The notes beneath the pieces are model-generated. The model worked only from the letters and a program-made list of their open reading frames with translations, was not told the origin of the DNA and ran no database searches. Of a stretch of 64,000 nt of DNA, positions 18,826-48,838 are shown piece by piece; the stretch's first letter is position 1, and each line of letters starts with the position of its first letter. The translations under genes and the position numbers were made by a program. The DNA comes from Lachnospiraceae bacterium MD329 (GTDB lineage Bacteria > Bacillota > Clostridia > UBA1381). Location: assembly GCA_010206265.1 (NCBI GenBank), contig VIQV01000026.1, positions 124,001-188,000 of the forward strand, given 5' to 3'.

Positions 18826-19064
18826 AGAAAATTAAATAGCAAAACCCCCTGAGATTTCACGTTAAAAAGTCTTTTTTTTACCAACACATCTTAAACGGGA
18901 TATTTACTCCGATTGTGGCGTATAAGCCTCCTTTCCTTCGGGAATGTCAGTGGACATATAAAGCAATTGGGAAATAACCCACCTGCTGAAGCAGGTAGAA
19001 ACTCGACTTTTCAATGACGGCTATCTCGGGGTATTTTTTTGTCCGCATAAGCGGACTTTTTTTT
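18826..19064 (+). ncRNA. ssrS: 6S RNA
   Basis: No protein gene fits this 400-base gap. ACCCCCTGAGAT (from 18844) can pair with ATCTCGGGGT (to 19032), the terminal helix of 6S RNA; its CTGAGAT and ATCTCGG are also in the E. coli molecule. Inside, AAAAGTC (near 18865) pairs with GACTTTT (near 19005), then a large central bubble follows. ACCTGCT/AGCAGGT forms the small hairpin on the 3' side of the bubble, and TTGTGGCG matches another conserved stretch. The mature RNA is about 18841-19036. 6S RNA mimics an open promoter and binds housekeeping RNA polymerase in stationary phase. Its position directly before the sporulation sigma operon is notable. Confidence 0.85.
19041..19064 (+). terminator. 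Intrinsic terminator of 6S RNA
   Basis: GTCCGC and GCGGAC flank ATAA, followed by eight T residues. Confidence 0.92.
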
Positions 19065-37743: not shown

Positions 37744-37764
37744 CTATGGTATTTTCAGACGCAT
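37744..37764 (-). CDS. Six-codon ORF MRLKIP after structured RNA, copy 1
   Basis: ATG-CGT-CTG-AAA-ATA-CCA-TAG is preceded by a perfect GGAGGAG five bases upstream. It lies about 30 bases beyond the terminator of the structured RNA. The second copy of the element has MQLKIP in the same place, with synonymous changes at Leu and stop. It may be a leader peptide or the start of a decayed gene. Confidence 0.45.
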   Translation of the reverse strand: MRLKIP

Positions 37765-37796
37765 AATATCTCCTCCGTTCATATGTATTTCCGTGC

Positions 37797-37957
37797 AATA
37801 AAAAATGCGTGGACAAGCCACGCATAAAAACGAGGCTTGATTTGTTACCACACAAAATTCAATTTTCCATACCCAAGCACGAAAAATAAAGCCTACATTT
37901 TTTGTAAATAAAAAAACGTACTTGGCGGATAATTTCATATTGAATTTTATGTGGTAA
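37797..37957 (-). ncRNA. Unrecognised structured RNA, copy 1
   Basis: On the minus strand transcription should start near 37955. The RNA begins with a long closing stem (37940-37957 with 37845-37862, 18 pairs including one wobble). Inside is a nine-pair stem (37917-37925 with 37873-37881) capped by a loop of U7, A6 and U-rich tracts. Loop bases 37889-37894 are complementary to linker bases 37833-37838, forming a six-pair pseudoknot. A terminator (37805-37812 with 37818-37825) and T tail end the RNA. The copy at 48.7 kb keeps all elements with different sequences in the stems. I do not recognise the family. The remaining gap bases on either side hold the gltD terminator and the yhbY promoter. 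Confidence 0.72.
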
Positions 37958-37961
37958 ATAT

Positions 37962-37990
37962 AGTATATCACATCATTTCTCCAAATGCAA
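37962..37990 (-). promoter_or_regulatory. Sigma-A promoter of structured RNA copy 1
   Basis: On the minus strand TTGCAT and TATACT are 17 bases apart; the expected start falls on the closing stem of the RNA. Confidence 0.78.
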
Positions 37991-48622: not shown

Positions 48623-48643
48623 TTATGGTATTTTAAGCTGCAT
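48623..48643 (-). CDS. Six-codon ORF MQLKIP after structured RNA, copy 2
   Basis: ATG-CAG-CTT-AAA-ATA-CCA-TAA has AAGGAG upstream and lies about 35 bases beyond the terminator of the RNA, as in copy 1. Leu, Lys, Ile and Pro are kept while Leu and stop codons differ. Confidence 0.45.
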   Translation of the reverse strand: MQLKIP

Positions 48644-48675
48644 ATTTATCACTCCTTTTTATGTATTTCCGCGCA

Positions 48676-48832
48676 TTAAAAAATGCGTTGCAAGAGCAAC
48701 GCATAAAAATGCACTTGCTCATTGCTGCAACACAAGATTTCGGCATAATTAAAGAATGCGAAAAAAGAGCAGGCATTTTTTACAATAAAAAAACACAAAC
48801 CTCAATTATGCTATATATTCACTTGTGTTGCA
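48676..48832 (-). ncRNA. Unrecognised structured RNA, copy 2
   Basis: The minus-strand RNA should begin at 48832, the first base of an 11-pair closing stem (48822-48832 with 48726-48736). An eight-pair inner stem (48804-48811 with 48743-48750) carries a loop with U7, A6 and U6 tracts. Loop bases 48767-48771 are complementary to linker bases 48716-48720, the same pseudoknot position as copy 1 but different bases. A nine-pair terminator hairpin (48683-48691 with 48696-48704) ends it. Length is about 157 bases, equal to copy 1. Outside it, this 437-base gap holds only the MFS terminator, the MQLKIP ORF and the promoters. Confidence 0.72.
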
Positions 48833-48838
48833 ATAAAT

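Follow-up and report, generated by a model that had tools for sequence, protein, structure and literature searches.

What is the structured RNA encoded on the minus strand between gltD and yhbY of Lachnospiraceae bacterium MD329, and what does it do? An initial annotation of the 64,000-nucleotide stretch of DNA analysed here (the window), made from the letters alone, had pointed to an unrecognised RNA of about 158 nt with its own promoter, an 18-pair closing stem, a nine-pair inner stem, a six-base complementarity between a loop and a linker, a terminator, a GGAGGAG sequence and a six-codon ORF, with all parts repeated at 48.7 kb. All of the named parts do lie on the minus strand at, or next to, the places assigned to them (Table 1). 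The 5′ arm of the closing stem (P1) of copy 1 begins at the predicted transcription start, which bears out the claim of a sigma-A-type promoter starting on this stem; its −35 hexamer is weak (3/6), and a promoter scanner does not report it because this hexamer falls under the scanner's limit. The folding z-score is −6.3 for copy 1 and −4.9 for copy 2, and in neither case do any of the dinucleotide shuffles (0/200 each) equal the native fold. The covariance model (CM) scores are 117 and 115 bits, each copy itself being in the model-building set.

Table 1. Parts of the two window copies of the RNA and the elements that follow them. Positions are those of the window unless a locus is named.
Feature	Position	Strand	Basis or remark
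Copy 1 promoter	37962..37990	-	Read from sequence; whole = −35, 17 nt, extended −10
Copy 1 −35, TTGCAT	37990-37985	-	3/6 consensus letters; weak
Copy 1 extended −10 TGATATACT, hexamer TATACT	37967-37962	-	5/6 consensus letters, TG extension
Copy 1 P1 5′ arm	37940..37957	-	18 pairs with 37845-37862; fold and covariation in 112 homologues
Copy 1 P1 3′ arm	37845..37862	-	Fold and covariation
Copy 1 P2 5′ arm (9 pairs)	37917..37925	-	Overlaps strand A
Copy 1 P2 3′ arm	37873..37881	-	Cognate pairing with P2 5′ arm
Copy 1 strand A (AAGUACGUUUUUUU)	37910..37923	-	Local pairing with B in alternative state = hairpin P3; in minimum free energy (MFE) fold
Copy 1 strand B (AAAAAAUGUAGGCUUUAUUUU)	37883..37903	-	Middle strand; partner A or C
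Copy 1 strand C (CAAAUCAAGCCUCGUUUUU), linker	37826..37844	-	Partner B (pseudoknot) or D (antiterminator)
Copy 1 strand D = terminator 5′ arm	37818..37825	-	Terminator prediction and fold
Copy 1 strand E = terminator 3′ arm and U tract	37799..37812	-	Terminator prediction and fold
Copy 1 terminator	37825-37805	-	Intrinsic, predicted
Copy 1 loop-linker complementarity	AGGCUU 37894-37889 with AAGCCU 37838-37833	-	Sequence
Copy 1 GGAGGAG	37776-37770	-	Sequence
Copy 1 six-codon ORF MRLKIP	37764-37744	-	Sequence
Copy 2, full	48679..48836	-	Same parts as copy 1
Copy 2 promoter, upstream	TTGACA 48867-48862, TATAAT 48844-48839	-
Copy 2 P1	48832-48822/48736-48726	-
Copy 2 P2	48811-48800/48754-48743	-
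Copy 2 strand A	48799-48787	-
Copy 2 strand B	48781-48767	-
Copy 2 strand C	48720-48705	-
Copy 2 strand D	48704-48696	-
Copy 2 strand E	48691-48683	-
Copy 2 GGAG and six-codon ORF	48623..48655	-	MQLKIP = 48643-48623
~120-nt element	L011:362-483, L009:563-668, G000:C6:7782-7902, beside L006, L010, L012

Is this RNA already known under another name? When the whole window was searched with Rfam 15, no family exceeded its gathering threshold on the RNA, and none reached the gathering score at copy 1 (E ≤ 10), on the RNA in 20 homologue loci (E ≤ 0.5) or in two class-wide representatives (E ≤ 10), which agrees with the initial annotation, whose author had recognised no known family. The only 6S RNA (RF00013) match in the window, of 69.4 bits, is at 18843-19036 on the plus strand, and at copy 1 there is none at E ≤ 10. 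T-box, tRNA and Gut-1 families are found in homologue loci, where they adjoin the RNA and do not lie on it; they occur in the same kind of hosts, at separate positions. One homologue locus (L054) has two sub-threshold matches to Gut-1 RNA (RF01706), at 861-942 and 963-1033, in opposite orientation and about 470 nt from the RNA. We found no description of such an RNA in the literature; the matched passages of three discovery papers (PMC8040213, PMC11109978, PMC8632094) contain none, and it may be listed unnamed in the supplement of PMC8040213.

The RNA is by no means confined to the two places first noticed. BLASTN revealed further, diverged copies in the same genome, and a covariance model of P1 and the terminator (R1), made from an alignment of 13 copies (A5), has 30 matches at E ≤ 0.01 and 32 at E ≤ 1 in this 2.74-Mb genome. 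The repetition at 48.7 kb is thus real, since copy 2 has the same parts, but the copies number about 30 and not two. R1 also has matches in 33 of 41 genomes (relatives and the own genome together). A second model (R2), built from 54 copies, matches 79/95 genomes of the order (E ≤ 1e-4) and 74/291 sampled genomes of the class, taken to be Clostridia (E ≤ 1e-6); the class-wide copy counts are lower bounds because nine candidates per genome were scored. In a phylum-wide sample the window's own genome was the only one of 299 to be matched, so that this sample doubles as a specificity control. A DNA pattern run against named genomes matched at least 120 stretches. Among the 80 matches listed, 78 bear the titles Clostridia, Clostridiales, Oscillospiraceae, Ruminococcaceae, Ruminococcus, Monoglobus, Eubacterium or Eubacteriales, with animal guts as a frequent source, and R2 matches every one of these 78; the other two, titled Psychroflexus (L203) and Sphingobacteriia (L222), have no such match. 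In one of the 78, Oscillospiraceae bacterium Zagget12 (L166), the R2 scores are 131.7 and 106.2 bits; both scores and their spacing recur in G003, a genome of the window's genus, to which Zagget12 therefore very probably belongs.

To what extent is the structure conserved? An alignment (A8) of 112 distinct copies to R2, which include the 54 copies behind that model, was fitted to P1 and the terminator and not to the pseudoknot, so the pair counts of the two former helices lean upward. All 12 modelled P1 pairs have two-sided changes, with 97.6% of cells paired, and the terminator pairs are formed in 99.1%. In the pseudoknot, pairing amounts to 97.8% for the A-U portion and to 81.6% for the ten remaining pairs, nine of which have two-sided changes. 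Taking all 36 pairs together, 93.6% are paired, 29 show two-sided change, and covariation amounts to 0.456, as compared with 0.198 ± 0.005 after shuffling and at most 0.101 in slid versions. With covariation this far above its controls, and with the folding scores of the two window copies, the view that this is an unrecognised structured RNA holds. The covariance-model search that the initial annotation had proposed has likewise produced homologues with compensatory changes in abundance; the computational grounds that it had named for giving up the RNA, a want of such homologues or a fit to a known Rfam family, do not apply, because these homologues are abundant and no Rfam family fits. A second set of 71 copies lies outside model building; it is what remained of 84 matches once duplicates, whether of earlier sequences or of one another, and copies whose terminator was cut had been removed.

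The pseudoknot suspected from six complementary bases exists, and it is longer than had been claimed: across the 112 copies the best loop-linker duplex ranges over 12–26 predicted pairs, with a median of 17, and extends through AAAAA/UUUUU. A further suggestion, that the U, A and U tracts of the loop could form a U-A-U triple helix, is unlikely to be right. In U·A-U major-groove triples the U and A strands have the same direction. Since the pseudoknot stem has the A-tract as its 5′ strand, the U-tract of the loop would run antiparallel to it. An antiparallel hairpin with the A-tract accounts for the U-tract, and a run of four or more U near that place is absent in 35/112 and 4/71 copies. Two homologous copies (L198:813-1011 and L213:4523-4722) have a linker without the pseudoknot strand and a different, more distant hairpin as terminator; they are probably damaged.

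What had been missed is that linker C also pairs with the 5′ arm of the terminator, as an antiterminator, and with it the switch logic of the RNA was missed. The predicted helices A:B, B:C, C:D and D:E make up a chain of four mutually exclusive helices over five strands, in which A is U-rich and lies upstream and B carries the A-tract. Do these alternative pairings belong to each copy, or would any strands pair as well? We compared the duplex energies of cognate strands with those of strands swapped between copies, a measure independent of column counts. In the 112 copies, cognate strands are favoured in P1 (z −30.8), P2 (z −37.2), A:B (z −13.5), C:D (z −14.3) and D:E (z −22.8), as well as in B:C when set against the whole inner region (z −14.4; a value of −18.5 was discarded, its segment having been picked by the cognate duplex), and three pairings that are not expected give z −0.3 to +0.8. 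The 71 independent copies behave in the same way for P1 (z −16.2), P2 (z −23.6), A:B (z −7.6), C:D (z −7.3) and D:E (z −16.5), with four unexpected pairings at z +0.1 to +1.4; B:C is weak there (z −1.9) because the pattern used in the search left strand B no room to vary. For the own genome alone, with 29 distinct copies, the values are −8.8 for B:C, −8.3 for C:D and −8.4 for A:B, and +0.6 and +0.7 for the negative pairings, which control in part for kinship among copies. Since the motif is conserved, B and C strands from different copies still form good duplexes (mean −13.6 as against −17.2 kcal/mol for cognate ones). Pairing of strand B with the 3′ arm of the terminator was considered as well and rejected, there being no cognate specificity (z 0.0 in the 112 and +1.3 in the 71 copies).

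The antiterminator C:D deserves separate mention. In 131/181 copies the linker and D fold better than their shuffles (z < −2), and in both window copies the nested MFE fold contains the C:D hairpin instead of the terminator. These nested folds are at −50.7 (copy 1) and −49.9 kcal/mol (copy 2); pseudoknot and terminator together come to about −59 kcal/mol, with no pseudoknot penalty included. By column counts, C:D stands out less than the other helices do: 82.8% paired as against 78.3% shuffled, 68 two-sided cells as against 40.5, and seven pairs with two-sided change, a number that 131/500 shuffles attain and that one slid version surpasses.

A chain of exclusive helices with cognate-specific pairing implies the logic of an attenuator or riboswitch, and the mutually exclusive terminator and antiterminator of an expression platform are found at the sequence level. 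Promoter, sensor-like P1-P2-pseudoknot part, antiterminator, terminator, Shine-Dalgarno (SD) sequence and gene together have the anatomy of such a device. We consider that the RNA is probably a cis-acting transcription attenuator, and as such a candidate riboswitch, of an undescribed family of about 160 nt in gut Clostridia.

How would the attenuator work? By sequence, the predicted promoter puts the transcript start on P1, and P1 and P2 enclose a loop from which strand B can pair either with A, as a hairpin, or with linker C outside P1, as the pseudoknot; C in turn can pair with B or D, and D with C or E. In the putative OFF state, P1 and P2 would be folded and the B:C pseudoknot would occupy C, so that D:E could form and RNA polymerase would stop, releasing an RNA of about 160 nt. 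In the putative ON state there would be no pseudoknot; A:B and C:D would form, the terminator would be blocked and transcription would continue into the following DNA. A signal, be it a ligand, a protein or the rate of folding, would bias the choice between the two states. Roughly half of the copies examined are followed by a gene with an SD just past the terminator, frequently one for a secreted LRR/BspA-type, another surface or a small protein; in the own genome most have only a tiny ORF or no gene at all behind them.

Does the RNA stand where a leader should stand? In a plain ORF call on the 112 copies the next gene shares the strand of the RNA in 41, faces the other way in 58 and is absent in 13, an excess of opposite strands that a pure leader should not show. 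This count missed short ORFs and was therefore replaced by an SD-based one. An ORF of at least 40 aa with SD and ATG begins no more than 80 nt beyond the end of the RNA in 42/112 and 43/71 copies, as compared with 9/112 and 8/71 on the divergent side as a control (85/183 versus 17/183 in total, where at least one ORF counted as led, that at L018 inside a ~120-nt element described below, is probably spurious). Its start is at +18 to +24 nt from the RNA end in 48/85. The remaining 98/183 copies have no such ORF; in several of these, inspection by eye reveals GTG or TTG as the start codon. Outside the own genome, then, the RNA appears often to lie directly 5′ of genes, which the initial annotation had not noticed. 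The family, its helices, the cognate specificity of their strands and this placement are demonstrated by the comparison of homologous loci.

The genes concerned are largely those of surface and small proteins. Among downstream proteins, Pfam LRR_5/BspA domains are present in 10/54 and 15/43, SLH in 3 and 1, Cu_amine_oxidN1 in 3 and 2, DUF6273 in 2 and 1, and HTH in 1 and 1, together with three zinc ribbons (DZR) in the second set. The first table covers 54 of 58 ORFs, with starts up to 190 nt away and several ORFs ending with the locus; three ORFs judged spurious (L018, L022, L113) were left out, as was the longer of two reading frames of one gene at L093. By a simple hydrophobicity rule with no background control, 19/42 and 29/43 of the proteins have a signal-peptide-like start. 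A small protein of 77–78 aa, MNIK(V/L)ELL..., is encoded directly behind the RNA at six loci (L049, L069, L088, L092, L097, L100). Viewed from the genes, the RNA is present at 9/30 LRR_5 loci from 12 RNA-bearing genomes, some loci sharing a gene; eight of the nine RNAs are upstream in the same direction, and that at L277 is opposite.

What might the signal be? AAUA or ACUA follows the 5′ arm of P1 in 84/112 and 43/71 copies, and GCAA or ACAA follows the 3′ arm in 60/112 and 69/71. Conserved unpaired stretches are thus short and leave little for a small-molecule aptamer. This would suit an attenuator in which one fold is stabilised by an RNA-binding protein and not by a small molecule, since the stem sequences vary freely and the constant parts are short junction motifs. 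The many copies per genome also resemble the regulons of RNA-binding antiterminators. However, the only regulators among the best 25 of 36 and 25 of 33 downstream families are single HTH proteins, and no candidate protein emerged, so we regard dependence on a protein as fairly unlikely.

The attenuator reading has to accommodate the copies that precede no gene. In the own genome, a convincing gene stands behind 7 of the 29 copies, the spurious ORF at L018 excluded. The other 22 keep the alternative helices (B:C −7.3, C:D −7.2, A:B −6.8, negative +1.5), and therefore the switch cannot serve a downstream protein gene alone. Some copies also stand in tandem, two or three to an array (L069, L104, L093, L119, L115; L015). 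The tandem pairs at L013 (192-605) and L015 (239-663) lie beside ORFs that by eye resemble HTH-type regulators, and the near-identical second unit in both appears to be a recent duplication. Just upstream of the RNA, the best hexamer has at least five of six −10 letters in 171/183 copies and a TGn extension is present in 145/183, counts with no shuffled control. Would the terminated RNA of about 160 nt itself be the functional product, acting in trans by protein sequestration or by pairing with mRNA, with the gene-proximal copies incidental? A promoter-like sequence and a terminator in nearly every unit, the tandem arrays and the retention of every helix in the 22 copies without a convincing gene would all be expected of such a small RNA, but it needs neither the link to genes with its favoured spacing nor a conserved antiterminator, and we hold it to be unlikely. 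The retained helix chain could also be read as a folding checkpoint that requires no signal: termination would depend on correct folding, so that folded RNAs alone are released. A strand-exchange chain with a toehold (the 3′ part of B with the 5′ part of C) would fit such a device; the placement before SD-bearing genes is then left unexplained, and this reading seems to us quite improbable.

Some copies without a convincing gene have something else behind them. An SD followed by M(K)(R/Q/K)LKI(P/T) and a stop codon is found after five copies in the own genome, namely both window copies, L002, L003 and L014. Read by eye, the Leu is encoded by five different codons in these five copies (n = 5), which hints that the peptide of six to seven codons is under selection. 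The second appendage is an element of about 120 nt (GGAGGGCAGAGAACG...CGGGGGTTCTCTC, its ends partly inverted), with six long matches in the own genome, all six of them 10–12 nt downstream of a copy of the RNA; none was found in five genomes of the same genus. With copy numbers that are high and variable among genomes, and with two kinds of 3′ appendage in the own genome (six ~120-nt elements and at least five mini-ORFs), one may wonder whether the RNA is the end or the fossil of a mobile element, and a transposon end was indeed an alternative named at the outset. The P1 arms, however, differ in sequence between copies yet remain complementary, unlike terminal repeats, and there is no transposase among the best 25 of 36 and 25 of 33 downstream families. 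The DNA pattern that had been run against named genomes had no match (0) in viral contigs, a weak argument because this pattern matches only 19 of the RNA-bearing loci. The locus of copy 1 is neutral in this respect: gltD is present in 15/16 genomes of the genus and adjoins the RNA in the own genome only, but this says nothing about mobility because other neighbours of gltD change too and some loci end early. A mobile origin is thus highly improbable.

A bolder form of the attenuator reading, which we advance tentatively and would not call probable, is that the RNA represents a new riboswitch class of gut Clostridia, which would control genes for surface and small proteins by a four-step strand exchange and would also exist as multiplied, gene-less units, in which the read-through product (the six-codon peptide ORF or the second structured element) or the terminated RNA would be the effector. 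If so, roughly one in four of the class genomes sampled carries a regulatory RNA that is absent from Rfam, with as many as about 30 copies in one genome and often before genes for host- or microbe-facing proteins, and it would offer a handle on surface regulation in uncultured gut Clostridia. Strand exchange during transcription could also be tested on a rich natural data set, the hundreds of paralogues whose mutually exclusive helices carry compensatory changes. A question of their own is raised by the gene-less copies: why is a read-through switch retained with no gene behind it?

How does this RNA compare with known systems? It resembles 6S RNA in being a stand-alone RNA of about 160–190 nt with a long closing stem, and differs from it in being multi-copy and in lacking a match to RF00013. 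It is also like the ZTP/pfl, fluoride, preQ1 and c-di-GMP-II riboswitches, which are 5′ leaders where a pseudoknot decides between a terminator and an alternative hairpin and where an SD directly follows the terminator. Unlike in riboswitches of the ZTP/pfl type, however, the present pseudoknot would reach beyond a long closing stem to the strand adjoining the terminator with its 12–26 predicted pairs, many copies are gene-less or in tandem with promoters of their own, and the genes are mostly for surface and small proteins and make up no metabolic pathway. With the trp-type attenuators of amino-acid operons it shares overlapping alternative helices that end in a terminator, whereas it has no noticed leader peptide upstream of the helices, its promoter being directly before P1, and it has five strands instead of four, plus a pseudoknot. 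We therefore rate the RNA family as new and the type of device as already known, with a topology and a multi-copy, partly gene-less lifestyle that are unusual for it.
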